Origin: Phycisphaerae bacterium
Lineage (GTDB): Bacteria > Planctomycetota > Phycisphaerae > Phycisphaerales > SM1A02
Assembly (NCBI GenBank): GCA_002700845.1
Contig: PAFA01000016.1
Coordinates: 1-38,727 of the forward strand
Direction: 5' to 3'
DNA: 38,727 nt
The notes beneath the pieces are model-generated. The model was not told where the DNA came from. It saw nothing but the letters and a program-made list of their open reading frames with translations, and did no database searches. A program made the position numbers and the translations under genes. Each line of letters opens with the position of its first letter. The first letter of the stretch is position 1. Below, piece after piece: positions 14,257 through 28,057 of the stretch.

Positions 14257-15633
14257 CTATCGTTCTGGAAGCAGAATTCGAAATACGCTGCCTTTTCCCA
14301 GCTCACTGGAGACACTCGCTTCACCAGCGTGGTGCAGAGCAATGTGCTTCACGATGGCAAGGCCAAGTCCGGTTCCGCCCATCTCACGACTTCTGGCCCG
14401 GTCAACTCTGTAGAAGCGTTCAAAGAGTCTTTTTTGGTGTTCGAGTGAAATCCCTGGGCCTTCGTCTTTGACTCGCAGTTCAATTTGCCGATGGGGCAAT
14501 TGACGTGCCTCCAGCGTAACCGTGGTGCCTTCGGTCGCGTACCGAAGTGCGTTTTGATACAGGTTCCCCAGTGCTTGCTCAATAAACCTCGAGTCTGCAC
14601 GAATCATCAGATCCCGATCAACGTTGATCTCGGTTTTTATATCGCGGGCAGAAGCCAAATCTTTGTGCAGTTCCACCAGCCGAGTGAATATTGCTTTGGT
14701 CTCGAGAGGATCCAGTCGATCTGGATCCACCTCGGCGGCGTGTTCAAGTCTCGAAAGTTCCAGGAGATCGTTGATGATATTGCTGACGATTTCGGTATTT
14801 CGAAAAATCACTTGGGCACAGTGTCTTTTGGTCTCTTCGTCAAGACCTTCTTCCAGAAGAGTCTCCGCATATCCGCGAACGGACGTGATGGGTGTTTTCA
14901 ATTCATGGGAGACATTTGATGCGAAATCCGTTCGCATGGACTCAAGCTTTCGAATCCGAGTGACATCGTCAAGAAGGATGACCAGCCCGACGCGGTCTCC
15001 GGATTTCGAGTCGATGATCGGATGGCCAACGGCGTTGATCTCTCGGCCCCCTCGTCGGTAGATCCGAATGTCACGGTTGAGGTCGTCATCACACGCAAGA
15101 CCATCGGTAACGAAGCCTAAAAGTTCTGGTTCTCGAAGAACTTCGCCCAGCTTTCGGCCTCGGTCCTCTGGGAGCAATCCAAGAATCGAAGAGGTGGCTT
15201 CGTTGCTGTTTAGGATCCGCTGCTCATGATTGACCGCAATGATGCCCGAGGCGATTGATTCCATGAGGGCTTGTTGTTCAAGTTGGTCTGTTCGCAGCTG
15301 GTGCATGCGGTCGTCGAGCAGATTGGCCATTCGATTCAGTGCCTCTGCCAGATTGTTGTGGTCCACAAAGCCTGGAGGACGGATTCGGCCTCGAAGGTCG
15401 CCCCGGCCAAACTGACGAGCGGTATCGGTGAGCACCCTCATCAATTTCCAGTGCATTTGAGTGGCAACAAAAATGATGGCCGCAGTGAAGGTAATGAGTC
15501 CAAGAAAAACCGCCACGACTTCAGCCGCTTGAATTGGTTCTTTTGCTGCTCTCTGAATCAGAAAGACTCCCGCAAATACTTGCAGGAGAAGAATGACCAA
15601 ACCGGACCACCAATGGAGAGATCTCTTGTGCAT
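14257..15633 (-). CDS. phoR: PhoR-type sensor histidine kinase
   Basis: A 458-residue membrane kinase. Two membrane segments at about residues 10-27 and 37-58 are separated by a loop of only about ten residues, so there is no real periplasmic sensor, as in PhoR. A HAMP-like linker (60-115) and a PAS domain (about 118-228) follow. The H-box FASNVSHELKTP carries His243, and the ATPase boxes are NLYQNALRYA, DEGPGI and GGTGLGLAIVKH. It would phosphorylate the response regulator encoded just upstream. The regulator's stop overlaps this ATG by one base (TGATG on the coding strand). The phosphate role is assumed from family resemblance; no pst or pho genes are nearby. Confidence 0.87.
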   Translation of the reverse strand: MHKRSLHWWSGLVILLLQVFAGVFLIQRAAKEPIQAAEVVAVFLGLITFTAAIIFVATQMHWKLMRVLTDTARQFGRGDLRGRIRPPGFVDHNNLAEALNRMANLLDDRMHQLRTDQLEQQALMESIASGIIAVNHEQRILNSNEATSSILGLLPEDRGRKLGEVLREPELLGFVTDGLACDDDLNRDIRIYRRGGREINAVGHPIIDSKSGDRVGLVILLDDVTRIRKLESMRTDFASNVSHELKTPITSVRGYAETLLEEGLDEETKRHCAQVIFRNTEIVSNIINDLLELSRLEHAAEVDPDRLDPLETKAIFTRLVELHKDLASARDIKTEINVDRDLMIRADSRFIEQALGNLYQNALRYATEGTTVTLEARQLPHRQIELRVKDEGPGISLEHQKRLFERFYRVDRARSREMGGTGLGLAIVKHIALHHAGEASVSSELGKGSVFRILLPER

Positions 15634-16346
15634 CAGGCTCCGTCAGGGTTTTCGCTTAGTCGGTAACCAACCCCGCGTACCGTTTCAATTATCCGGCCAG
15701 CCCCTTCGAGCTTTCGCCGCAGAGCGGTAACGTGAACGTCCACGGTGCGGCTCGAGAGGATCGTATTTCCTCCGTGCACTGAAGCGATAATTTGATCTCT
15801 GGTTCGTACGAAGCCAGGTCGCGCGGCCAGGTACTTCAGAATGCTGAATTCAGTAATGGTGAGACTCAATGGTTCGCCACGTACGCTTACGCGGTGCCTC
15901 TCAGTATCAATCTCAAGTTCGTTGGCCAAGGTGATGACCCCATTCGCCTTCTCTTGAGATTCTGCAGGGGATGTGCGACGAAGTACGCTTTTGACTCTTG
16001 CCACCAATACCCGAGGGCTGAACGGTTTGGCGATGTAATCGTCTGCTCCGAGTTCGATACCGGCGACGACGTCGGCTTCCTCACCCTTGGCTGAAACGAT
16101 AATGATCGGCAGATTTTCGGTCTTTGGTGCTCGGCGTAGGCGTCGGCAAACTTCAAGACCATCGAGATCTGGGAGCATCAGATCAAGGAGTACGCAGTCA
16201 GGCATGTTTTGTTCAATTTCCACAATGCCGGCTTTTCCAGAGTGGACCGTGTCTGCTGCAAACCCATTGCGATCCATGTGCAAACGGATCAGATTGGCAA
16301 TCTCGGGCTCATCTTCAACAATGAGGATTCTTTTTTTGGTGCTCAT
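15633..16346 (-). CDS. phoB: PhoB-like OmpR-family response regulator
   Basis: A 237-residue two-domain regulator. The receiver domain has the acidic pair EDE at residues 11-13, phospho-acceptor Asp55 in LLDLMLPD, and the conserved Lys in YIAKPF. The C-terminal winged helix carries TITEFSILKYLAARPGFVRTR and SRTVDVHVTALRRKL, very like PhoB. ATG 16346 is preceded on the coding strand by GGGAGAG about 10 bases upstream; a longer frame to 16550 would run antisense through the start of the SDR gene. About 118 bases separate it from the divergent SDR gene, which may share regulatory sequence. I found no convincing tandem Pho box there. Confidence 0.87.
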   Translation of the reverse strand: MSTKKRILIVEDEPEIANLIRLHMDRNGFAADTVHSGKAGIVEIEQNMPDCVLLDLMLPDLDGLEVCRRLRRAPKTENLPIIIVSAKGEEADVVAGIELGADDYIAKPFSPRVLVARVKSVLRRTSPAESQEKANGVITLANELEIDTERHRVSVRGEPLSLTITEFSILKYLAARPGFVRTRDQIIASVHGGNTILSSRTVDVHVTALRRKLEGAGRIIETVRGVGYRLSENPDGA

Positions 16347-16464
16347 TGATTCTGCTCTCCCAGGGGATAGGCGTTGAAGATAGGTCAGAAAGATATCTGT
16401 TTCATAAAGATTTGGTTCAGACTGCGCGTCCGGTGTCATTGTCTTTATGTGTACGATTTTTGTG

Positions 16465-17268
16465 ATGGCCACACCGCACAATTCAGTAAAAAATATCTTT
16501 TGTCCTACAGCTCTCCATAATCGGAAGGCTTTGGTTGGTGGTGCATCCAAGGGGCTTGGTCAAGCCATTTCGCATGCATTGGCGGCGGCCGGTGCCTCGG
16601 TGCATGGTCTCGCGAGGGATAAAGAGACTCTGGCAGCGGCCATGGAGGCTTTGCCGGGATCGGGTCACTGTGCCACTGCGATTGATTTTGACCACAGTGA
16701 AGCCCTGACTGGCTTGGTGTCAGAAAATGACCACTACGACATTTTCATCCACAATACCGGGGGTCCGGCGGCTGGTCCGCTGCTCGAAGCAGACCCTGAT
16801 GACTTGGATGCAGCTTTCCGGCGTCATGTTCGCTCTGCTCATCTGTTGATGCAGCAAGTGGTCCCTGGCATGCGAGATCGTGGATTTGGTCGGATTGTGT
16901 TGGTGGTTTCGACAAGTGTCATCACCCCAATTCGAGGCCTTGGCGTTTCCAACACCATCCGAAACGCCATCGCCAACTGGGCCCGCACACTTGCGGTGGA
17001 GTTGGCGTCAGATGGCATTACGGTGAACTGTGTATTGCCGGGCTTCACCGACACTGACCGGCTGACCTCCCTTATCTCAGGTCGGGCCAATCGCCAAAAT
17101 TGTTCCACAAAAGAGGTGCGGGACGCGATGATTGCCAGCGTTCCGGCAGGGAGATTGGGTAACCCCGGTGAGTTGGCGGCGCTCACAACCTTTTTGTGTT
17201 CCGAAGCTGCGGGGTACATCAATGGCACGGTGATTCCAGTTGATGGTGGCCGGGTGGTTGCAGGATGA
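16465..17268 (+). CDS. Atypical SDR oxidoreductase, first gene of the aminomuconate operon
   Basis: About 267 residues (273 if ATG 16447 is used; neither start has a clear ribosome site). The cofactor motif is GGASKGLG, the NNAG motif is NTGG, and the C-terminal GYINGTVIPVDGGRVV is standard for classical SDRs. The catalytic Ser is in VVSTSV. The expected YxxxK is replaced by S-N-T-I-R, so both the Tyr and the Lys are gone, as in a known FabG-like subgroup with an SNxxR signature. It overlaps the dehydrogenase gene by ATGA, so it probably acts in tryptophan or aminomuconate breakdown. No step of the textbook pathway needs it. Function unknown. Confidence 0.8.
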   Translation: MATPHNSVKNIFCPTALHNRKALVGGASKGLGQAISHALAAAGASVHGLARDKETLAAAMEALPGSGHCATAIDFDHSEALTGLVSENDHYDIFIHNTGGPAAGPLLEADPDDLDAAFRRHVRSAHLLMQQVVPGMRDRGFGRIVLVVSTSVITPIRGLGVSNTIRNAIANWARTLAVELASDGITVNCVLPGFTDTDRLTSLISGRANRQNCSTKEVRDAMIASVPAGRLGNPGELAALTTFLCSEAAGYINGTVIPVDGGRVVAG

Positions 17269-18713
17269 TGGATCTTCGGCATTGGATTCATGGTGAATCA
17301 GTATCAGCGAGGGATCAGGGATGGATCTCGGTCACTGATCCTGCGACGGGACAGGTGTTTGCGCGGTGCGTTGCGGGGAACTCTTCGGATATCGAACTTG
17401 CGGTCCAATCGGCCAAATCAGCTTTCCCGGCTTGGTCCCAAACCGCAACCGCCGAACGGGTGGCCGCGCTTGAGCGCTTTGCTTCTGTGGTTGATGCGCA
17501 TCGCGATGAACTGGCCACACTTGAGTCACGCGATGGCGGCAAGCCGATCACTCGGGCGAGAGAGGTTGAAATTCCCCGTGTTGCCGAGAATTTAAGATTC
17601 TTTGCATCGGCTTTGCGGCACGAACACAGTGATGCTTTCACCAGCAGCCCGGAGGTGATTCATTGGACGCATCGCCGTCCCCGCGGTGTGGCCGGTTGCA
17701 TTTCACCTTGGAACCTCCCGTTGTATTTGCTTTCTTGGAAAATCGCCCCTGCTCTTGCAGCGGGATGCACGGTGGTTGCCAAGCCCAGTGAAATCACACC
17801 AGCGACCGCAACACGATTTGCAGAACTGTCTGGCGAAGCGGGATTGCCACCGGGGGTTTTGAATATTGTCCATGGCCGCGGCAGCGAAGCGGGTGCGGCT
17901 TTGGTGGAACACCCTGATGTCCCCACAATCTCTTTCACCGGAGGAACGGCCACCGGAAAAGCCATTGCGAAGGCCTGTGGCGAACAGTTCAAGCGAGTTT
18001 CGCTGGAACTTGGCGGTAAAAACCCCTTTGTGGTGTTTGCGGATGCCGACTTGGATCAAGCTGCCACCGAAGCCGCTCGTGCGGCATTCAGCAATACCGG
18101 CCAGATCTGCTTGTGTGGCTCACGCATCTTGGTGGAGCAATCGGTACTGCCAGATTTTCAGGAGAAGTTGCTCAAGGCCACCGCGGCCTTGCGGGTGGGC
18201 GACCCTGCTTCGGAGGAATCACAAATTGGTTCGATGGTCTCGGAGCCTCATTACCAAAAGGTGAAGCAGGCCATCGAGTCCGCTCCCGGAACGGTTCTGT
18301 GTGGAGGAGGTCGTCCGGCCGATCTCCCAGAGCGATGCCGGGAGGGCTGGTTCCTCGCCCCAACCATCCTCACTGATTTGCCAGAGACTTGCTCAACCGA
18401 GCAGGAGGAGATTTTTGGTCCCGTTGCAAGTTTGCGAGGGTTTGTAGATGAGGCCGATGCCATTCGTTTGGCCAACGCGACGTCGTATGGTTTGGCGGCA
18501 AGTTTGTGGACCAAGGATTTGGATCGTGCCCATCGGCTGGTTCACCGTATTGAGGCAGGAGTGATCTGGATCAATGCTTGGATGATTCGTGATCTGCGCA
18601 CTCCATTTGGTGGAGCCAAGCAATCTGGGCTGGGTCGTGAAGGTGGGATCGAATCGGTACATTTCTTCCAGGAGCCTGCCGGGGTGACCTTGCGTTTGGG
18701 GAGTTCTTCATGA
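17265..18713 (+). CDS. nbaE: 2-aminomuconate 6-semialdehyde dehydrogenase
   Basis: A 482-residue aldehyde dehydrogenase. The active site shows ISPWNLPLYLLSWK with Asn150, the general base Glu248 in LELGGKNP, and Cys282 in NTGQICLCGSR. The GQICLC form and the C-terminal WMIRDLRTPFGGAKQSGLGREGG are typical of the 2-aminomuconate and 2-hydroxymuconate semialdehyde dehydrogenases (ALDH8A1, AmnC, NbaE). It would oxidise 2-aminomuconate semialdehyde, made by the decarboxylase of the facing operon, to 2-aminomuconate with NAD+. The start ATGATGG at 17265 overlaps the SDR stop, and its own stop overlaps the RidA gene by four bases. The pathway context makes the amino substrate more likely than the hydroxy one. 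Confidence 0.87.
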   Translation: MMDLRHWIHGESVSARDQGWISVTDPATGQVFARCVAGNSSDIELAVQSAKSAFPAWSQTATAERVAALERFASVVDAHRDELATLESRDGGKPITRAREVEIPRVAENLRFFASALRHEHSDAFTSSPEVIHWTHRRPRGVAGCISPWNLPLYLLSWKIAPALAAGCTVVAKPSEITPATATRFAELSGEAGLPPGVLNIVHGRGSEAGAALVEHPDVPTISFTGGTATGKAIAKACGEQFKRVSLELGGKNPFVVFADADLDQAATEAARAAFSNTGQICLCGSRILVEQSVLPDFQEKLLKATAALRVGDPASEESQIGSMVSEPHYQKVKQAIESAPGTVLCGGGRPADLPERCREGWFLAPTILTDLPETCSTEQEEIFGPVASLRGFVDEADAIRLANATSYGLAASLWTKDLDRAHRLVHRIEAGVIWINAWMIRDLRTPFGGAKQSGLGREGGIESVHFFQEPAGVTLRLGSSS

Positions 18714-19168
18714 GTATTGAGTCCGATCGTGCACCTGAGCCGGTGGGGCCATACCCCCACGCTCGTTGGGCTGGTGATTTCTTATATGTCTCTGGTGTAG
18801 GTCCCCGAAAACGTGGTACCACCGCGATCCCTGGTGTGGCATTGGATGCCGAAGGCAACATTGTCTCCGCCGATATTGAGGCGCAATGTGAGTCCTGTTT
18901 TGCCAACGTAAAAGCAGTGGTGGAAGACGCCGGCGCGGAATGGTCAGATGTTTTTGATGTGCTGGCATTCCTGACCCACATGAAGCGTGACTTTTCGGGT
19001 TACAACAAGGTTTACGCGGACTGGTTTGCCGGTCCCAAAGGGCCACGCCCGACGCGCACTACCGTCGAAATTGGTGCGCTTCCGACACCAATTGCTGTGG
19101 AACTCAAGGTGGTGTGTTACCGCCCCGGGGGGCCGATCAAGACCGCCCGTACGGGCGACGCGTCGTAA
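18710..19168 (+). CDS. nbaF: RidA-family 2-aminomuconate deaminase
   Basis: A 152-residue RidA/YjgF protein. It has PVGPYPHARWAGDFLYVSG at the start, QCESCFANVKAVVEDAG in the middle, and the signature RPTRTTVEIGALPTPIAVEL with the conserved Arg that binds carboxylates. The 2-aminomuconate deaminases AmnD and NbaF belong to this family, and the gene is coupled by ATGA to the semialdehyde dehydrogenase. It therefore probably converts 2-aminomuconate to 4-oxalocrotonate with release of ammonia. A general enamine deaminase role is the alternative. Its last 52 bases overlap the 3' end of the convergent formamidase gene. Confidence 0.83.
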   Translation: MSIESDRAPEPVGPYPHARWAGDFLYVSGVGPRKRGTTAIPGVALDAEGNIVSADIEAQCESCFANVKAVVEDAGAEWSDVFDVLAFLTHMKRDFSGYNKVYADWFAGPKGPRPTRTTVEIGALPTPIAVELKVVCYRPGGPIKTARTGDAS

Positions 19169-19770
19169 CCTGCCAGCGGGAGAGGGAAGGCGATCAGGTG
19201 CCACAGCCCGGTCGAGATTGCATCCAACCTCAGTTGTTCAAGAATCCAGAGCCCGTGGATTCCTGCCCGATGGTGCGCGACAAGTACCTTTGCATCGGCG
19301 GCATCAATACTCGGGGTATCCACGCCGATCAGTTGCACGCCGCGACCGGCGATCGCATCCATGAACTCTGGACTCAATGATCGATACTTTGGTTCGAAAA
19401 CTGTCGGATCAGGGTAGGAACGTGTACGAACCAGCAGCCGCGGTGGGAGATCGCCATCCGGAAGAACCGAGGCTGGCACCGGACCGTCACCTGGTGCATC
19501 AATAAGCAGTGCGGTCCCGTACCCCAACGACAATGGCATGGTCTCGACTCCAGCACCGTCTTTGACGTAGTGGCAAGGCCCGTCGATGTGTGTTCCGAGA
19601 TGCACGGTGCTGTGCAAGGTGGAGAGTGTCAGGTGCGCGCCTTGTTGCATATCCAGCAACAGTTCCCGCGTTGGGGGTGTATCCCCAGGGAAAACCGCAA
19701 CGTCTGGAGTCAGCGGCATTGAGATGTCATGGATGTCCATGCGTGGATTTTCTGAACTCTTGTTGGACAT
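19117..19770 (-). CDS. kynB: Kynurenine formamidase (cyclase family)
   Basis: A 217-residue protein of the bacterial KynB/cyclase fold. The zinc motif is HLGTHIDGPCHYV (HxGTHxDxPxH), the N-terminus has DISMPLTPDVAVFPGDTP, and the second half has GVDTPSID and a His cluster VAHHRAGIHG. It hydrolyses N-formylkynurenine to kynurenine and formate, step two of the pathway. I chose ATG 19770 because AGAAGG lies 8 bases upstream on the coding strand; a GTG at 19779 would sit inside that site, and ATG 19740 has none. It is separated from the tryptophan dioxygenase gene by about 256 bases holding a palindrome. It may therefore have its own promoter. Confidence 0.88.
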   Translation of the reverse strand: MSNKSSENPRMDIHDISMPLTPDVAVFPGDTPPTRELLLDMQQGAHLTLSTLHSTVHLGTHIDGPCHYVKDGAGVETMPLSLGYGTALLIDAPGDGPVPASVLPDGDLPPRLLVRTRSYPDPTVFEPKYRSLSPEFMDAIAGRGVQLIGVDTPSIDAADAKVLVAHHRAGIHGLWILEQLRLDAISTGLWHLIAFPLPLAGYDASPVRAVLIGPPGR

Positions 19771-20026
19771 CCGGAACACCTTCTGTTCACAGAGTACACA
19801 GGTTGAGCAAGGCCCAGACCTGAGTACAACCCATCATCAAGTACCATCTCCCAGCCGAGTCTTCGGTGGGCTTCGTTCTGTCTGAAGTAACAAGTAGCTG
19901 TTACCTAGGAGCGGGGCCCACCGTGGGCTTGGCCAATGCTGGAGACCGAGGTGGGGGTGGGTCAGCAAGGCTCGAAGTGCCCTCCGCGTCTGACTGGGAA
20001 GAGTCGCCCCCGGCATAGCCGGCCCC
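19771..20026. other. Noncoding gap between tryptophan dioxygenase and formamidase genes
   Basis: About 256 bases with no convincing gene. The part next to the dioxygenase stop is GC-rich and contains a short hairpin CCGGC-ATA-GCCGG (about 20010-20022) without a T-run. A dyad lies at 19887-19904. I recognise no known riboswitch. This is the only large break in an otherwise fully overlapping operon. Confidence 0.6.
19887..19904. promoter_or_regulatory. Palindrome upstream of kynB, candidate operator
   Basis: GTAACA (19887-19892) and TGTTAC (19899-19904) are perfect inverted repeats separated by six bases. They lie about 117 bases upstream of the kynB start. Size and spacing suit a dimeric regulator. 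Kynurenine-responsive Lrp/AsnC proteins (KynR) control kyn genes in some bacteria, but no regulator gene is present here and I do not see the same dyad ahead of the other operon starts. Confidence 0.35.
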
Positions 20027-20812
20027 TTAGAAGCGGTGGCGGATTTCCCAAAGGTCAGGAAAGAACGGGTGGAACAAACTCTTCTTCAGGAACTCCACAC
20101 CGAGTGAACCTCCGGTGCCTTCTTTGGTCCCGATGGTTCGGGAAACCAGCTGAACATGGCGATAGCGCCACTCCATGAATCCTTCATCCAAGTCAATCAT
20201 GGTCTCGAACATTCCAATCAGGTCAGGCCGATCGGTATACAACTTGAACAATGATTCTTGGACGCGTTCATCCGGCTGTGATGGCTGGGTGACATCACGC
20301 TCCAGGATGTCCTTTGGAATTTCTGCTCCGCAATCAGCCAAGAATTGATGGAAGGCGTCGCGGAGGGTGGGTGCGGCCAGCCTGGCTTTGAGTTGATCCA
20401 AACCTTCGAGGTGTTCTGGCCAATGCTCCAGCATTCCGGGTCTCTTGTACCCAAGGAACGTTTCAATTTCTCGAAATTGCACCGATTGAAAGCCGCTGCT
20501 GGTTTCAAGGCGGTCGCGGAATGAATTGAACGACCGGGGGGTCATGGTTTCCAAAATGTCCAGTTGGCCGACCAGCGTTTTTAAAATCGTTCGGGATCGA
20601 CCCAAGGTTGCATGGGCGCCCCACTGGGCTCCACTGCGAAAATCAGATTCAACTTTTTCCAGCTCGTGCAACAAGAGTTTGAACCAAAGCTCATACACCT
20701 GATGGATCACGATGAAAAGCATCTCATCGTGTTCAGGTGGATCACTTCGTACTTTTTGCAAGTCGAGGAGTTGGTCCAGCTCAAGGTATCGCGGGTAAGT
20801 CAAATCCGACAT
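20027..20812 (-). CDS. kynA: Tryptophan 2,3-dioxygenase
   Basis: A 261-residue heme dioxygenase, close to the usual length for bacterial enzymes. Family motifs are FIVIHQVYELWFKLLLHE (active-site His37), SSGFQSVQFREIE with Arg114, MEWRYRHVQLV with heme-ligand His219, and GTKEGTGGSLG. The C-terminus FHPFFPDLWEIRHRF is also conserved. It opens the indole ring of L-tryptophan with O2 to give N-formylkynurenine. The ATG is 12 bases after the monooxygenase stop, the only non-overlapping junction in the upstream five-gene block. Although it catalyses the first step, it is placed fifth in the transcript. Confidence 0.93.
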   Translation of the reverse strand: MSDLTYPRYLELDQLLDLQKVRSDPPEHDEMLFIVIHQVYELWFKLLLHELEKVESDFRSGAQWGAHATLGRSRTILKTLVGQLDILETMTPRSFNSFRDRLETSSGFQSVQFREIETFLGYKRPGMLEHWPEHLEGLDQLKARLAAPTLRDAFHQFLADCGAEIPKDILERDVTQPSQPDERVQESLFKLYTDRPDLIGMFETMIDLDEGFMEWRYRHVQLVSRTIGTKEGTGGSLGVEFLKKSLFHPFFPDLWEIRHRF

Positions 20813-20824
20813 AGGAAGGGGATC

Positions 20825-22078
20825 CTAACGGGCCAAGCCGAGGCGTTGGAGACCGCGCAAGAGTTGATCTTGGCGGCGTCCTCGCCGAAGTGCGTCGGCG
20901 TAGGACTGATTTGAGAATGAAACACGGTCGTACAGCGGGGTGAATAGTCCAGGCATCCAGCGACCAAGTCGCCGCTCGAGCGCTTTGCGTTTCAGGAACA
21001 TGGGGTCCCCCACATGATCGCGCATTTCAATGAAATTCATCAGCGCCATCTCTGCGATAGCGTCAGCATTTGCTTTGCGCTCTTGGAACAATCGTTTGGG
21101 AAGATCAGTTTGTCCGGAAGCATGGAGTTCATCCAGACGTCGAACATCTTCAAACGATGCGTTCATGCCTTGTCCGTAAAAAGGGACAATGGCGTGGGCT
21201 GCGTCGCCAACCAGAACAGTGTTCCCATGGTGCCATTGATCAACCCGCAAGGTCCCCAGGAAGCCAACTGGGTTTTCGGACCACTGCTCTTCGAAATTTG
21301 GAACACACGAAAGCATGGACCGGTAGTGCGTTTGCAAATGATTGCGAGCGGCCGTGGGATCACGAAGACTCTTAAAAGTGTCATCAGCAAAAAACAGTGT
21401 TCCGGTGAAGGTGCCATCAGGATTGGGAAGGGCGATAGCCATCTCACCACCACGCGGCCAGATATGCAGCGCGGCGGGATCAAGCGCATGTCGACCGTCA
21501 ACTGGAGGAAGTTCAAGCTCTTTGTAGGAATGCCCAAGAGGTTCTGTAGTGCTTTGGCAGTACCCATGATTTTCTAGAGATTGTCGAACAATGCTGCCCG
21601 CGCCATCGGCGCCCACAATGAGGTCGGCTTCAATGGATTGCTCGCCAAGAAAAACCGCTTGACCGTTTGCGTGTACACCCGTGACACTTTGCTCAAACTG
21701 CACGTCCACAGACTTGGTTTGCTCGGCCGATTCGAGGAGGGTGGCATTGAGGAGGCCGCGCCCAACCGACAAGATGGCTTGCTGTTCGTCTTTGGCATAT
21801 GGCTGACGGGTCAGTTGACCCAGGGCGTCATGCATCAGGCGAGCGGACATCGGCATCGCATCAGCCACAACCTGATCTTCAAGGCCTGCTCGTGCCAGCG
21901 CGGTACGTCCCCGGGTGGAGAGGGCCAGGTTGATCGATCGTCCACCTTTGTTGCCGTGCCGCCGGGGATCGGGACGTGCTTCGAGCACCAATGTTTTGAT
22001 CCCACGTTGACCAAGGAGAGTGGCGAGCAAACTGCCAGCCAGTCCCGCGCCAACGATGATGACTTCTGGTCGCTTCAT
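20825..22078 (-). CDS. kmo: Kynurenine 3-monooxygenase
   Basis: A 417-residue FAD monooxygenase. It has the dinucleotide fold IIVGAGLAGSLLATLLGQRG, the KMO-specific segment RRHGNKGGRSINLALSTRGR, and the second FAD motif VLVGDAAHAIVPFYGQGMNASFED. It hydroxylates L-kynurenine at C3 using NADPH and O2. The C-terminal part (ERRLGRWMPGLFTPLYDRVSFSN) follows the family pattern but lacks a long membrane anchor, so the enzyme is probably soluble or peripheral. The ATG at 22078 overlaps the kynureninase stop as ATGA. Confidence 0.93.
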   Translation of the reverse strand: MKRPEVIIVGAGLAGSLLATLLGQRGIKTLVLEARPDPRRHGNKGGRSINLALSTRGRTALARAGLEDQVVADAMPMSARLMHDALGQLTRQPYAKDEQQAILSVGRGLLNATLLESAEQTKSVDVQFEQSVTGVHANGQAVFLGEQSIEADLIVGADGAGSIVRQSLENHGYCQSTTEPLGHSYKELELPPVDGRHALDPAALHIWPRGGEMAIALPNPDGTFTGTLFFADDTFKSLRDPTAARNHLQTHYRSMLSCVPNFEEQWSENPVGFLGTLRVDQWHHGNTVLVGDAAHAIVPFYGQGMNASFEDVRRLDELHASGQTDLPKRLFQERKANADAIAEMALMNFIEMRDHVGDPMFLKRKALERRLGRWMPGLFTPLYDRVSFSNQSYADALRRGRRQDQLLRGLQRLGLAR

Positions 22079-23340
22079 GAGTTCAATCCGGAATCTTTGG
22101 CCAGCGTCAACGCCCGTACCAGTCGAAACGCATCTTCGTAGGTGTTGTAAAGCGGGGCTGGAGCAGCGCGAATGATGTCTGGCTTTCGAACGTCACAGAC
22201 CACCCCTTCTTGATGCAGGTGGGCCTGCATCGCTTCGGCATTAGGAACACGAAGAGAAAGTTGTGCTCCCTGTGCATCTTTTGGAGTCATTACTTCGACC
22301 CAAGCAGGAAGAGCATCTCTGAGCCAGCCGGTCAGCCTTCGGCTTCGAGCTCGCAGGGCAGCCATACCGATGTCATCGAACAGGGCCAGCGCGGAACGAA
22401 GGGGGGCGAGGGCCATAATGGGGGGATTCGAGAGTTGCCAAGAGTCGGCTGATGGCACGGGGTGGAACTCAGGGATTTGGTGCATCTTGAATCGAGTCGT
22501 GGGATCGTTGCCCCACCACCCGCCAAATCGGGGGCGGCTGGTGTCTTTGCCGTGTCGTTCGTGGATGAACACGCCTGAAAGACCGCCTGGCCCACCGTTG
22601 AGGTACTTGTATGAGCACCAGGCGGCAAAATCCACGTTGTCGTTGTGCAGTTCCAGTGGGATGTTCCCGGCGGCATGGGCAAGGTCCCAGCCGGCAAGCG
22701 CGCCCACACTGTGCAAGGCTTTGGTGATTCGGCGAATGGGATGCACCTGGCCGGTGAGGAAGTTCACTCCAGCAATCATTCCCATGCACAGCGAATCTCC
22801 AGCCGCATGGATGGCCGCTTCCAACTGTTCGGGCTTCGTGGTTCGATCCCCACCAGGATCCACGACGATCAGATGCTCATCAGGATCAAAGCCGCGTTGT
22901 CGCATGTGTGACTTGATGGCATAGGTATCACTGGGAAAGGCCGGGGCATCCATCAAAATTTTGGTGCGTGAACCGTTTGGTCGCCAGAAGCTTGCCAGCA
23001 GCAAGTGCAAATTGACGGTGAGCCCATTCATCCACACCACTTCATGAGGCTGACCGCCAACCAAGCGTCCGCCAGGCTCAGCAAGGGCAAGGTGGGCGTC
23101 ATACCAGGGGTGCGTGGCTTCAAAATGCGCGTCAACAGCCAGGCGGCTCCAATCATCAAGTTCAGTGGTCAGTTCTTGCCGAGTTTGCTTGGGTAGAGGG
23201 CCCAGGCTGTTCCCCGTGAGATAGGCCAGTGTGCCCTGGGCATTCTTGGGCAATTCAAAAGCGTCTCGCTTGGGTGCGGGATCTTCATCCTCAAGTCGGA
23301 GGGCTTCGGCGTGGATGATTTCGAGGGAGGGTGCGGTCAT
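22075..23340 (-). CDS. kynU: Kynureninase
   Basis: A 421-residue PLP enzyme of aminotransferase fold type I. Landmarks are YLTGNSLGPLPK near residue 40, GWDLAHAAGN with Asp219, and SYKYLNGGPGG with the PLP lysine Lys245. RFGGWWGNDP and the C-terminal DVRKPDIIRAAPAPLYNTYED are also family motifs. It cleaves 3-hydroxykynurenine to 3-hydroxyanthranilate and alanine. ATG 23340 overlaps the decarboxylase stop as ATGA. A longer frame reaching 23430 would lie inside the upstream gene. Confidence 0.93.
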   Translation of the reverse strand: MTAPSLEIIHAEALRLEDEDPAPKRDAFELPKNAQGTLAYLTGNSLGPLPKQTRQELTTELDDWSRLAVDAHFEATHPWYDAHLALAEPGGRLVGGQPHEVVWMNGLTVNLHLLLASFWRPNGSRTKILMDAPAFPSDTYAIKSHMRQRGFDPDEHLIVVDPGGDRTTKPEQLEAAIHAAGDSLCMGMIAGVNFLTGQVHPIRRITKALHSVGALAGWDLAHAAGNIPLELHNDNVDFAAWCSYKYLNGGPGGLSGVFIHERHGKDTSRPRFGGWWGNDPTTRFKMHQIPEFHPVPSADSWQLSNPPIMALAPLRSALALFDDIGMAALRARSRRLTGWLRDALPAWVEVMTPKDAQGAQLSLRVPNAEAMQAHLHQEGVVCDVRKPDIIRAAPAPLYNTYEDAFRLVRALTLAKDSGLNS

Positions 23341-24392
23341 TCGATCGGCGGGGAAGGTGATGCGGGCAAAAAATGTGAATGCAATCGTTTCTTCGCGCGA
23401 CCGCCAAGAAAATCGATGGCATTGTCCCACATTATGCGTTGTTGCTCCGCTTCGGTCAGTTGTTGTGACTTGATCACGGATTCGCCCGGGATTGCTTCCC
23501 CAAGAGGAAATGGTGCGTCAGAGCCAGTGCAAATGCGTTCGGACCCAAACCGATCCACCAAGAATCTCAGCGCATCGTCATCGTGCACACCAGAGTCCAC
23601 CCAGAATCGATCCAAGAGGGAACTGGGGAGCGATTGACTCGCCGTGGCAACCAGGTCAGGTCGCATACGGAATCCATGATCGATGCGCCCCAATATGAAT
23701 GGGAATGCACCGCCACCGTGGGCAAAGCAAACCCGAAGATCAGGATGCTTTTCAAAGACGCCGCCGAGGATCATGGAAGCTACGGCAAGGGCCGTTTCGC
23801 TTGGCATGCCCACCAGCCATCGCAACCAATGCCGACTCATCCGATCGGCACCAACCATTTCCCAGGGATGAATCAAAATGGGAAGGTCAAGTCGAACGCA
23901 GGCCTCCCAGAAAGTGTCGAAGCACGGGTCGTCCAATTCTCGACCGCCGGCGTGAGTGCCAATCTGTATCCCGACAAGTCCGAGTTCCGCAATGCGATGC
24001 AACTCTTGAGTGGCCAAGTCGGGGTCCTGCAGGGGTACGGTCCCCAAGGTGAGGAAGTGATCTGAGTGTTGATCTTGGACTTCGGCAAAATGATCATTCA
24101 GGTAGCGGTGAAGATGCAGAGCATCCTTTGCCGGGGCAAAGTCGGAAAAAAGTACGGGAACAGTTGAGAGAACTTGGACGTCAACCCCATGAGCATCATT
24201 GAAGACCCTTCGGCGGTCCGCACAGCAGCATTCGGGCTCGACGGTCCGGAACACTCGCTCGCCTTGTCGCATGGTGACCCGCCCGCCATCGGCAGGATCG
24301 AGGGCGATCCAGCCGGAGCGACCAGTAATTGCTTCCATGTCTGGAAGTTTGGGTGGAAGCAAATGAGCGTGAACATCAATCAGCCGGCTCAC
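23337..24392 (-). CDS. nbaD: 2-Amino-3-carboxymuconate semialdehyde decarboxylase (ACMSD)
   Basis: A 351-residue zinc-dependent non-oxidative decarboxylase of the amidohydrolase superfamily. All expected metal ligands are present: His8 and His10 in DVHAHLLP, His175 in LIHPWEM, and Asp292 in CTGSDAPFPLGE. His225 in FAHGGGAFPF is the catalytic His, and Arg51 and Arg236 match the substrate arginines known from the Pseudomonas enzyme. It removes CO2 from ACMS, so the pathway is pulled away from quinolinate and NAD. The start is GTG 24392, overlapping the dioxygenase stop by four bases. Confidence 0.93.
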   Translation of the reverse strand: MSRLIDVHAHLLPPKLPDMEAITGRSGWIALDPADGGRVTMRQGERVFRTVEPECCCADRRRVFNDAHGVDVQVLSTVPVLFSDFAPAKDALHLHRYLNDHFAEVQDQHSDHFLTLGTVPLQDPDLATQELHRIAELGLVGIQIGTHAGGRELDDPCFDTFWEACVRLDLPILIHPWEMVGADRMSRHWLRWLVGMPSETALAVASMILGGVFEKHPDLRVCFAHGGGAFPFILGRIDHGFRMRPDLVATASQSLPSSLLDRFWVDSGVHDDDALRFLVDRFGSERICTGSDAPFPLGEAIPGESVIKSQQLTEAEQQRIMWDNAIDFLGGRAKKRLHSHFLPASPSPPIE

Positions 24393-24982
24393 TGAACGGC
24401 CTCGCGAATAATTTTTACCTCTGGCTCAAATTCAATTCGTTTGATCGGCTGTGCTGGAACCACTCGGACACCGCAATGGCATGTTGATCTTTCCTCGTCG
24501 GCCCAGAATGCCAGCATCGCTTCCCGAAAGTGTTTCACGATGTCGGCGCAGTCAAATTCCAAATCCTCGACAACAGCGCCACATGACTCGCACAGAAATC
24601 GAAGTCCTTCACGTTCGCCGGGAGGTCGCCGACGCTCAATCACCAAGCCAAGCGTGTTGGGTGGTCGCTGCGGGGCGTGTGGGACGCCGCCTGGGATCAT
24701 GAAGGTCTCTCCCTCGCGGATCCTGACGTGTCGAGGGCCATTTTCTTCGAGCAACGTGACCACAATGTCGCCTTGCAGTTGAAGAAAGAACTCTTCGCTG
24801 TCGGTGATGTGAAAGTCGTTGCGAGCGTTTGGCCCGGCAATGCACATGGCAAAAAAGTCTTGGCCGTCATACAGGTATTTGTTCGAAACCGGTGGCTTCA
24901 TGTCAGCACGGTTTGCTTGAATCCAGTTCAACAGGTGTTCGGGTTCTGGGGCCACCATCCCGTGTTCGATGCTGTGGGACAT
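24389..24982 (-). CDS. nbaC: 3-Hydroxyanthranilate 3,4-dioxygenase
   Basis: A 197-residue cupin dioxygenase, first gene of the minus-strand operon. The catalytic iron ligands are His58, Glu64 and His102, with Arg54 in the RNDFH segment for substrate. The bacterial-type C-terminal rubredoxin-like iron site is present, with Cys131 and Cys134 in CESCG and Cys168 and Cys170 in CHCG. The second pair is CxC, where I expect CxxC. It opens 3-hydroxyanthranilate to ACMS. The ATG at 24982 is preceded by a strong GGAGG seven bases upstream (24990-24994 on the plus strand as CCTCC), which is better than the TTG at 24988. Confidence 0.93.
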   Translation of the reverse strand: MSHSIEHGMVAPEPEHLLNWIQANRADMKPPVSNKYLYDGQDFFAMCIAGPNARNDFHITDSEEFFLQLQGDIVVTLLEENGPRHVRIREGETFMIPGGVPHAPQRPPNTLGLVIERRRPPGEREGLRFLCESCGAVVEDLEFDCADIVKHFREAMLAFWADEERSTCHCGVRVVPAQPIKRIEFEPEVKIIREAVQ

Positions 24983-25213
24983 CGTCAATCCTCCTCGGCC
25001 ATGGGCATAATTGTGTCAAAATACGTCACGCTGGGTTGATTCTCGGACACTCTACAGCGTGTTGACGGCCAACTCGTTCATTTGTGTCATGAATTCTGCG
25101 GTGATGCATCCTGTACGCCCCGAGTGCGTATAGATATGTTGACATGTCCCGATTTGGGGCCCTTATTGATGTGGTAAGCCAAAAGGCCTGCCCTTTTGTT
25201 GAACGGAGTGACC
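24983..25213. promoter_or_regulatory. Divergent control region between the kyn operon and the metallopeptidase gene
   Basis: About 230 bases with no gene. It should hold promoters for both directions. For the plus strand, TTGACA at 25139-25144 is a good -35 box, with CTTATT or TTATTG near 25162-25168 as a weak -10. TTGTGTCA occurs twice, at 25011-25018 and 25082-25089, and TGTTGAC twice, at 25060-25066 and 25138-25144. Repeated words like these may be binding sites. None of this matches a consensus I can name. Confidence 0.4.
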
Positions 25214-28057
25214 ATGCCATTTTTGTCCACCTTGACTGCAAGTCTTGTCTCAGGAACGATCCTGTCCGCTGAAATTCAGAACACCGGACCAATCATTGAT
25301 TCCTTTGAGTTGCAAAGGCTCCAAAATGTCTTCCCTGGTGTGGGCACATGGAATGCACCCGATGGCCGTTTGAACCGCATCTTTGGTCGACCCATGGTGA
25401 CCGGGGGCTCCCCGCAAGATACGGCCATGAACTTCATTCGTGAATGGTCTGGTGTCTGGGGGCTCAGTCAGAAGGACTTCATCTTGGCCGGCCCGTTCCC
25501 GGGTGATGACCGAACCCAGCAGCCACTCATGTGGGATCAAGCGACCGGGACATACAAGTTCACTTCTGTCTACTTCAAGCAAAATGTCCAAGGTGTACCG
25601 GTTTACAACAGCCGCCTGCAAGTTCTGGTTCGCAACGACTCCGGATTCCCCGCGGTTTCGATCGGTACTGATCTTCGCAACGTCAACGCTTTGCTTGGCG
25701 AGCAAAAGCCCGCAGGGATTGATCGAAATTTAGTGAATGCACGTGCCGAGGACTTCTTGGGCAGTGATTTTGTGATGGTGTCTCAGCCTGAAATGGTGGT
25801 CTATGCCGGCTATGACTTTGAAAGTGTTCCCGCGACCTTCGCGTACGCATTTGATGCAAAAGTTGGCGGCCCCGAAAATGTAGACACGTACCAGAAGGCT
25901 CGTTACATCATCGACGCGGCTTCTGGCGAACTCCTCCGCAAAGAAAATCTCATTCTGAACTGCACCCACAACGAGCGAATCGCCAGTGCCATTTTCGCCT
26001 CGGCAACCGCGGTTGATGGAGTGATTACGGGTGCGAATACCATTACAAGCCGGGCCGAAGCTTGTGACCCAGAGGTCCAGGTGGGCGCACCTTATTTGGC
26101 GATTCCCGACAGCGTTAGCGGAACGATCTACACCGATTACGAAGGCAACGCTACAGGCGTTTCTCCTGGCTCACGGACCTTGACCGTGGATGGCCGCTTC
26201 TTTGATGTGAACTATTTCTCTGGTTCCGCCTACAGCCAATCGGTCAACATTGAGTCTGGGCTCCCTTTCAACCTGGCGTTGAACCCCACGGATGAAACTG
26301 GCAAGGCCGCAATGAATGCCTACATTGAATCCAATGTGGTCCGCGATTTTTCGCTTGCTCGCAACCCCTCGTACCCCGTAATTGGTGGCCAGCAAGATTG
26401 GGACATCAATATTGGTGTCTCCGGAAGTTGCAATGCGTTCTATGACGGCTCTTCCATCAATTTTTACAACACTGGCGGCGGTTGCAACAACACCGCATTC
26501 TCGGTGATTGTGCATCACGAGTATGGGCACCACTTGGTGAACACCGGCGGTTCGGGTCAAAATGAATTTGGTGAAGGTTCTGGTGATGTGATGGGCGTTC
26601 TGATTGAGCGTGACTCTCGTTTGGCCAGAGGCTTCTTCCAGAACGACTGCAACAACGGTATTCGTAACGCCGACAACACCTGCACCTTCCAGTCAGATTG
26701 CTCTTCATGCGGGTCTACGATCCACTCTTGTGGGCAGTTGATTTCTGGTTGTGTTTGGGACACGGTTGCAGCGTTTGAAGACAGCGGTATGTCCCCAGAT
26801 GAAGCCAACTTCTACATGGGCGATTTGTATCTCAACATGATCCCGCTTCACTCTGGTGGCTCGATCCAGCAGGATATTTTGATTGACATCCTTACCCTGG
26901 ATGACAATGACGGCAATCTCAACAATGGGTCGCCGAACTACTTCGAAATCGCCGCAGGCTTTGCCGTGCATGGTTTTGATGCTCCTGAGCTCTCTGGACT
27001 CGATTTCCAATTCCCCAACGGCACCCCATCTGCAATCAACCCATTCGACGGCGTTGACCTTGCGATGAATGTCTCCGGCTTGTCCTTCCAGCCGGTGCCA
27101 AATACCGGCACGCTTTACATTGGTCGTGCGAATGGCTCTGTAGACGCCGTGGCGATGCCACAGGTTGCGAACAACCAGTACGCCTTGACGTTCTCAGATA
27201 TTGAGTGCGATGAAGCCATTTCGTACTACTTCTCATCCGAAGCCACGACTGGCGACGTCTTTTACTGGCCTGGTGGTCAGACCTCCGCGCCTGCTCCAAC
27301 GGCGCGGTTTACAGGGATCGGGGCGACCGGAGAAATCATTGCCTTCGATGACGACTTCCAAACCGATACTGGTTGGACGGTCAGTGGCGCCGCCACCGAC
27401 GGTCAGTGGGACCGTGGGGTTCCTGTAGGTTGTGATCGCGGTGATCCCGGGATCGATGCTGATGGTTCGGGTTCCTGCTTCCTAACCGACAACTCCACCA
27501 ATGGCGGCGACTGCAACAGTGATGTTGACGGTGGGCAAACCATTTTGACTTCTCCTCCCTTGAATGCTTCCGCACCAGGTTCCGTGATCTCGTACTGGCG
27601 TTGGTTTGACAACTCTTTTGGCGCCTCGCCCAACCAAGACACCATGCTCGTGCAAATGTCTGGTGATGGCGGTCTGAGCTGGGTTGGTGTTGAGGTGGTT
27701 GGCCCGGTGAACGAAGCCACCGGTGGTTGGTACCAAAAAGAGTTCTTGGTGAGTTCATACGTTGCCAACAGCACGAACTTCCGAATTCGGTTTATCGCCC
27801 AAGACACCGATCCGGGTTCCGTGGTTGAAGCAGCGATTGATGGCGTACGCCTTCTGGCGACAGAGTGCATCGACGATGGGCCGTCTTGCCCAGGTGATGT
27901 CGATGACGACAGCGATGTTGATTTCAACGACTTGGTGTCCTTGCTCGCAGCCTGGGGCGATACCTGCTCTGGGTGCCCAGAGGATGTCAACGACTCCGGA
28001 ACCGTCAACTTTGATGACCTCGTTGCCCTTCTGGCTTCCTTCGGACCCTGCCCGTAA
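25214..28057 (+). CDS. Secreted M36/M4-like zinc metallopeptidase with dockerin-like tail
   Basis: A 947-residue exported protein. ATG 25214 has GGAG at 25205-25208 and opens a signal peptide (MPFLSTLTASLVSGTILSAE). Residues about 60-240 resemble the FTP propeptide of fungalysin and thermolysin relatives. The zinc site is HEYGH (His435, Glu436, His439), followed by the ExxxD helix with Glu454 and Asp458, the third ligand region. Residues about 710-885 form a jelly-roll, MAM-like region starting at FDDDFQTDTGWTV. From about 892 come two EF-hand-like dockerin repeats, DVDDDSDVDFNDLVSLLAAWG and DVNDSGTVNFDDLVALLASFG. It probably degrades external protein. The function of the dockerin tail in planctomycetes is not established. 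Confidence 0.87.
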   Translation: MPFLSTLTASLVSGTILSAEIQNTGPIIDSFELQRLQNVFPGVGTWNAPDGRLNRIFGRPMVTGGSPQDTAMNFIREWSGVWGLSQKDFILAGPFPGDDRTQQPLMWDQATGTYKFTSVYFKQNVQGVPVYNSRLQVLVRNDSGFPAVSIGTDLRNVNALLGEQKPAGIDRNLVNARAEDFLGSDFVMVSQPEMVVYAGYDFESVPATFAYAFDAKVGGPENVDTYQKARYIIDAASGELLRKENLILNCTHNERIASAIFASATAVDGVITGANTITSRAEACDPEVQVGAPYLAIPDSVSGTIYTDYEGNATGVSPGSRTLTVDGRFFDVNYFSGSAYSQSVNIESGLPFNLALNPTDETGKAAMNAYIESNVVRDFSLARNPSYPVIGGQQDWDINIGVSGSCNAFYDGSSINFYNTGGGCNNTAFSVIVHHEYGHHLVNTGGSGQNEFGEGSGDVMGVLIERDSRLARGFFQNDCNNGIRNADNTCTFQSDCSSCGSTIHSCGQLISGCVWDTVAAFEDSGMSPDEANFYMGDLYLNMIPLHSGGSIQQDILIDILTLDDNDGNLNNGSPNYFEIAAGFAVHGFDAPELSGLDFQFPNGTPSAINPFDGVDLAMNVSGLSFQPVPNTGTLYIGRANGSVDAVAMPQVANNQYALTFSDIECDEAISYYFSSEATTGDVFYWPGGQTSAPAPTARFTGIGATGEIIAFDDDFQTDTGWTVSGAATDGQWDRGVPVGCDRGDPGIDADGSGSCFLTDNSTNGGDCNSDVDGGQTILTSPPLNASAPGSVISYWRWFDNSFGASPNQDTMLVQMSGDGGLSWVGVEVVGPVNEATGGWYQKEFLVSSYVANSTNFRIRFIAQDTDPGSVVEAAIDGVRLLATECIDDGPSCPGDVDDDSDVDFNDLVSLLAAWGDTCSGCPEDVNDSGTVNFDDLVALLASFGPCP

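Follow-up and report, generated by a model that had tools for sequence, protein, structure and literature searches.

Two fates of 2-oxo-3-hexenedioate (4-oxalocrotonate) are set out in the relevant passages of PMC7842363, namely decarboxylation and hydration, or reduction to 2-oxoadipate and then conversion to glutaryl-CoA. In the bacterial Nba/Amn/Dmp lower pathway, this compound is reached after 2-aminomuconate semialdehyde dehydrogenase (AMSDH) and RidA, and the described continuation is by DmpH, DmpE, DmpG and DmpF, with decarboxylation, hydration and aldol cleavage (PMC10470539). In the mammalian and fungal route, 2-aminomuconate or 2-oxo-3-hexenedioate is reduced to 2-oxoadipate, those passages naming no gene for the step (PMC7842363), and the figure of the human pathway in PMC12899273 likewise shows an "oxalocrotonate reductase" with no gene given. 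A gene for aminomuconate reductase was not found in the open-access literature. To our knowledge, no gene is known for the conversion of 2-aminomuconate to 2-oxoadipate that is drawn in mammalian tryptophan textbooks.

Some members of the SDR family work without the YxxxK motif. AerF of Microcystis (PDB 6jh7, 6jha and 6jhb), a biosynthetic enzyme with a cyclic substrate, is called an alkenal double bond reductase in the title of a work cited in PMC10143770, and NADPH and the aryl-pyruvate 4-hydroxyphenylpyruvate are bound in its structures. NADPH-dependent BacG (YwfH) of Bacillus (3u49, 3u4c and 3u4d) reduces the conjugated 2-oxo acid H2HPP to H4HPP in the bacilysin pathway, according to the part of PMC9147277 that deals with it. 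The SNxxR-bearing SDRs of Burkholderia (5va8, 5vps and 5idx/5idy), whose function is not known, bind NADP(H), as seen in 5idy, 5va8 and 5vps. The reaction of AerF and BacG is taken here to be reduction of a C=C bond conjugated to a 2-oxo acid.

The stretch of DNA analysed here (the window, 38,727 nucleotides from a Phycisphaerae bacterium) carries the whole kynurenine pathway, its genes forming two groups of opposite orientation (Table 1), SDR-AMSDH-RidA on the plus strand (16447-19168) and HAAO-ACMSD-KYNU-KMO-TDO-KynB on the minus strand (24988-19117). Genes were identified by blastp, Pfam and PDB matches and not by ORF length; ORF calls in high-GC loci contain antisense shadows. The SDR ORF is intact and has 273 codons counted from the ATG at 16447, although similarity to the family starts at about residue 22, so that either this ATG or the in-frame one used in an earlier, sequence-only reading of this DNA might be the start. 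ATGA overlaps join the SDR stop (17268) to the AMSDH start (17265) and the AMSDH end (18713) to the RidA start (18710), and the response regulator gene upstream is divergent, which makes the SDR the first gene of the plus-strand operon. The coordinates thus bear out the operon of SDR, AMSDH and deaminase proposed in that reading. The divergent genes (14257-16346, minus strand) encode this response regulator and a PhoR/PnpS-like sensor kinase (14257-15633). Beyond the minus-strand group, a large predicted secreted protein (25196-28057, plus strand) shows, as read directly from its sequence, a metalloprotease-like motif (HEYGHH) and a dockerin-like repeat at its C-terminus.

Table 1. Kynurenine genes of the window, with positions counted from its first nucleotide
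Feature	Position	Strand	Remark
SDR of the AMSDH/RidA-linked clade, HSSR and not NSYK active site; proposed 2-oxo-3-hexenedioate/2-aminomuconate reductase	16447..17268	+	alternative start 16465
AMSDH (2-aminomuconate semialdehyde dehydrogenase), aldehyde dehydrogenase family	17265..18713	+	best model HpaE, under its cut-off; role from context
RidA-family protein, probable 2-aminomuconate deaminase	18710..19168	+	
KynB arylformamidase (cyclase family)	19117..19779	-	convergent with RidA gene
TDO tryptophan 2,3-dioxygenase	20027..20812	-	
KMO-like FAD monooxygenase	20825..22078	-	
KYNU kynureninase	22075..23430	-	above NCBIfam cut-off
ACMSD-like amidohydrolase	23337..24392	-	name from context and relatives
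HAAO 3-hydroxyanthranilate 3,4-dioxygenase	24389..24988	-	above NCBIfam cut-off

The SDR assignment is given by Pfam (PF13561/PF00106 above cut-off) and by the predicted fold (pLDDT 90), for which Foldseek returns SDRs at a TM of about 0.9. As the sequence-only reading had it, and as the alignment confirms, a TGxxxGxG-type Rossmann motif (with G32, G36 and G38 conserved) and Ser155 are kept, while Ser168 and Arg172 (numbered from 16447) occupy the Tyr and Lys positions. In addition, the Asn position of the Asn-Ser-Tyr-Lys tetrad is changed to His127, and the set of His127, Ser155, Ser168 and Arg172 is constant in the clade described below. Together with Ser157, Asn169 and Arg205, these four are invariant in 92/92 pathway-linked SDRs. 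Such constancy of Ser155, Ser168 and Arg172 among linked homologues is not due to chance, and that of the replacement residues argues against a decayed enzyme. His127 marks the clade, outside which this position reads Thr, Cys, Asn, Leu or Lys. SNxxR was rejected as a clade marker; it is also found in the unlinked PDB entries 5va8, 2z1n and 1o5i and in planctomycete paralogues.

By sequence and predicted fold, the closest solved structures include 5va8, 5idy, 5vps, AerF and YwfH/BacG, the last two being, of the characterised SDRs that have no YxxxK, the nearest in form. The Burkholderia proteins resemble the SDR in fold (TM 0.90-0.93) and share Ser155, Ser168, Asn169, Arg172 and Arg205, but they are 34-37% identical to it, have Asn at 127 and belong to a separate, neighbouring clade. 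AerF has the same fold (TM 0.88-0.91) and Ser at the Tyr position, although it shows 26-27% identity, Gly at 155 and Asn at 172. BacG has other residues at 155, 168 and 172 (27% identity). The KEP motif at residues 159-161 is common to AerF, BacG and most of the clade; the window lineage has ITP there. Like AerF and BacG, the window SDR combines the absence of YxxxK with this fold and an NADPH site, the cofactor being presumably NADPH. In a maximum-likelihood tree of 158 rows (a quick tree, with long branches flagged), all 92 pathway-linked SDRs fall into one clade of 119 sampled rows (SH-aLRT 99, stem 1.18), with the 5va8 relatives as the neighbouring clade and AerF and BacG paired elsewhere (98). 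The window lineage has a long stem branch.

This clade is linked to kynurenine genes across phyla. The best 80 loci of a scan of GTDB species genomes come from Planctomycetota, Bacteroidota, Pseudomonadota, Gemmatimonadota and others, and within 10 kb of the SDR they encode AMSDH (67/80), RidA (59/80), ACMSD (57/80), KMO (55/80) and KYNU (54/80). Kynurenine genes are near the clade SDR in 92 sampled loci. Among the 111 sampled clade loci, some of which duplicate a genome, AMSDH is found in 87 and RidA in 76, and in 73 the AMSDH gene is the immediate neighbour of the SDR, in the same orientation. A relative at E <= 1e-40 is present in 55 of 294 sampled planctomycete genomes; a close relative was not found in the plasmid collection. 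In Mangrovimonas, Tamlana, Aequorivita and other flavobacteria, the SDR lies within compact kynurenine operons of the order KYNU-KMO-RidA-AMSDH-SDR-HAAO-ACMSD, the very linkage that had been mentioned in the sequence-only reading. Three flavobacterial loci (L105, L108 and L136) have neither AMSDH nor RidA within 10 kb, and there the SDR remains with HAAO/ACMSD. The neighbourhoods of SNxxR-bearing homologues bear out the link to kynurenine genes for the clade, but SNxxR by itself proved not diagnostic: the nine planctomycete paralogues that have SNxxR but fall outside the clade are without any pathway neighbour (0/9). The inspected neighbourhoods of the 5va8-type sister clade likewise show neither kynurenine linkage nor a common pathway. 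In one of them (L267:7061-10233, genome G488), the SDR adjoins an ACMSD-like amidohydrolase, which hints at a ring-cleavage product as a possible substrate of the sister clade as well. No pathway genes were found near four basal clade SDRs of Phycisphaerales (L035, L036, L059 and L060, in G034, G095, G002 and G172), which may have an older or different role. The single clade, the residues kept in all linked members and the linkage across phyla strongly support the view, anticipated in the earlier reading, that the SDR is a conserved member of the lower kynurenine pathway. It is apparently undescribed; a search of the open-access literature gave no account of it as part of kynurenine operons.

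Another set of loci places the SDR more precisely. In nine loci (eight from planctomycetes and one from a proteobacterial MAG, some ending at contig ends), the SDR occurs with a luciferase-like monooxygenase, and the complete ones add an asparaginase-II-like protein, AMSDH, two LigB proteins, RidA and often TDO and KynB. The LigB proteins are the beta and alpha subunits of 2-aminophenol 1,6-dioxygenase (PDB matches 8ihg_A, E 1e-106, and 7txy_A, E 3e-54), and none of KMO, KYNU, HAAO and ACMSD was found within these nine loci. Two ring-cleavage routes, both accompanied by AMSDH, RidA and the SDR, thus converge on 2-aminomuconate semialdehyde, which puts the SDR step at or after this compound. 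The arrangement, TDO-SDR-luciferase-like monooxygenase-asparaginase-II-like-AMSDH-AmnB-AmnA-RidA-KynB (L052:8007-16468, L044:1475-11128 and L087:4988-13411; also L043, L046, L050, L051, L058 and L062), is apparently a new operon for tryptophan degradation. It is predicted that kynurenine undergoes Baeyer-Villiger oxidation to a 2-aminophenyl aspartyl ester, which is hydrolysed to aspartate and 2-aminophenol; this route would bypass KMO, KYNU, HAAO and ACMSD.

The SDR-bearing genomes tested lack the Dmp lower pathway. No match to the DmpG communication domain (PF07836) or to DmpH (TIGR03218) was found in SDR-bearing genomes (0/47). As a positive control, 24 HAAO-bearing Pseudomonadota of a 299-genome sample were examined: DmpG is present in five, none with the clade SDR, and the clade SDR (E <= 1e-104, the next class being at 1e-65) in seven, none with DmpG. 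The Dmp genes lie in or beside the HAAO/ACMSD cluster in G503, G548 and G556. An independent ACMSD profile gave nine strong matches in 398 Pseudomonadota, with the SDR in six and Dmp in the other three. By Fisher's test, which ignores kinship and here covers few genomes, the exclusion has a p of 0.012 in the nine ACMSD-bearing genomes and is not significant in the 24 HAAO-bearing ones (p 0.27); G716 was left out of the DmpG search in these counts. Linkage with AMSDH and RidA and the absence of the Dmp branch from the tested SDR-bearing genomes are consistent with an aminomuconate/oxalocrotonate reductase.

From the family, clade, active-site conservation and linkage, the absence of Dmp in the tested genomes and the presence of glutaryl-CoA dehydrogenase in most (see below), all seen directly, we infer the substrate, reaction, residue roles and cofactor of the SDR. 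It is probably an NADPH-dependent conjugate (C=C) reductase that converts 2-oxo-3-hexenedioate (or 2-aminomuconate) to 2-oxoadipate. Conjugate reduction is proposed because 2-oxo-3-hexenedioate has a conjugated 2-oxo-3-enoate unit, as in the chemistry of AerF and BacG. AMSDH would yield 2-aminomuconate, which RidA would deaminate to 2-oxo-3-hexenedioate; the SDR would then transfer hydride from NADPH to C4 of the 2-oxo-3-enoate, or of 2-aminomuconate as its not yet hydrolysed 2-imino tautomer, and the resulting enolate would be protonated at C3 to give 2-oxoadipate, which would proceed to glutaryl-CoA. The invariant His127, Ser155/157, Ser168, Arg172 and Arg205 would bind the dicarboxylate and stabilise the enolate. 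Tyr and Lys would be dispensable, since the proton goes to carbon and there is no alkoxide for Tyr to protonate. The proposed reaction equals the step drawn in PMC7842363 and PMC12899273, in the portions of them that treat this pathway, whereas the Nba/Amn/Dmp pathway starts from the same compound but does not reduce it. The statement in the sequence-only reading that no textbook step needs an SDR therefore does not hold, as the described reduction to 2-oxoadipate needs a reductase.

Some other functions of the SDR were considered. The same product would be obtained in another order if the SDR reduced the 2-imino-3-enoate tautomer of 2-aminomuconate before RidA, which would then hydrolyse 2-iminoadipate. 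This order agrees with the mammalian enzyme, a reductase of 2-aminomuconate, and with L105, L108 and L136, where RidA is missing beside the SDR; however, it is rather unlikely, as RidA accompanies the SDR in most clade loci and the substrates of AerF and BacG, as far as the cited accounts go, are oxo acids. Action on 2-aminomuconate semialdehyde, by reduction or as rescue of an unstable intermediate, had been an option in the sequence-only reading. Although AMSDH is the commonest immediate neighbour of the SDR (73/111), this function is improbable: it leaves unexplained why the SDR occurs in the absence of the Dmp lower pathway, a pattern that favours a step after AMSDH and RidA, aldehyde reduction would work against AMSDH, and the SDR has no Tyr to protonate an alkoxide. 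A catalytically dead protein with a structural or regulatory role, such as a channelling partner of AMSDH and RidA, might be suspected from the loss of three of the four tetrad residues, but this is very hard to reconcile with the invariance of their replacements, the retained cofactor site, the NADP(H) bound by SNxxR relatives and the co-occurrence of the SDR with loss of a catabolic branch. Equally implausible is the chance presence in the operon of an unspecialised carbonyl reductase of the FabG kind, for which the fold (TM 0.83-0.87 to FabG structures) and generic SDR family matches might speak, since all NCBIfam SDR models listed score far under their curated cut-offs (best 182 vs 339 bits; FabG models 112-144 vs 222-333), Tyr, Lys and the tetrad Asn are all missing, and conservation is clade-wide with linkage in several phyla.

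The product of the preferred reaction, 2-oxoadipate, would lead to glutaryl-CoA. An orthologue of glutaryl-CoA dehydrogenase (above 50% identity to a query identified against PDB) is present in 55/56 SDR-bearing genomes outside Phycisphaerales versus 5/13 planctomycetes without the SDR. A glutaryl-CoA branch in flavobacteria, Lysobacterales and planctomycetes other than Phycisphaerales is thus well supported. No orthologue was found in six Phycisphaerales (0/6), among them the genome of the window, which is 78% complete, and its relatives, and two near-complete Phycisphaerales genomes have just one acyl-CoA dehydrogenase, which belongs to a different type, so that 2-oxoadipate may have another fate there. 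Two planctomycetes have a glutaryl-CoA dehydrogenase gene on the contig that carries the SDR, at a distance of about 11-12 kb (L251:4881, G149; L252:5700, G178).

Taken as a whole, it is tentatively suggested that the clade of His-Ser-Ser-Arg SDRs provides the first gene for aminomuconate/oxalocrotonate reductase and defines a branch of tryptophan degradation through glutaryl-CoA that is widespread in bacteria; some planctomycetes would add to it a new upstream route, in which a luciferase-type Baeyer-Villiger monooxygenase and an asparaginase-like ester hydrolase convert kynurenine to 2-aminophenol. If so, a bacterial gene for the reductase step would allow a direct assay, make the intermediates accessible by enzymatic preparation and serve as a query in the search for its eukaryotic equivalent. 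Hundreds of genomes that now list the gene as a generic SDR could be annotated correctly, and it would become clear how flavobacteria, planctomycetes and Lysobacterales complete tryptophan degradation without a Dmp-type lower pathway.

The flavobacterial loci have two further features. The ACMSD-like protein encoded there (L078:11439-12527 and others) is about 26-30% identical to the ACMSD of the window and represents a distinct subfamily. An O-methyltransferase gene (PF01596) follows the kynurenine operon at L078:12515-13168 and in 31 other flavobacterial loci.
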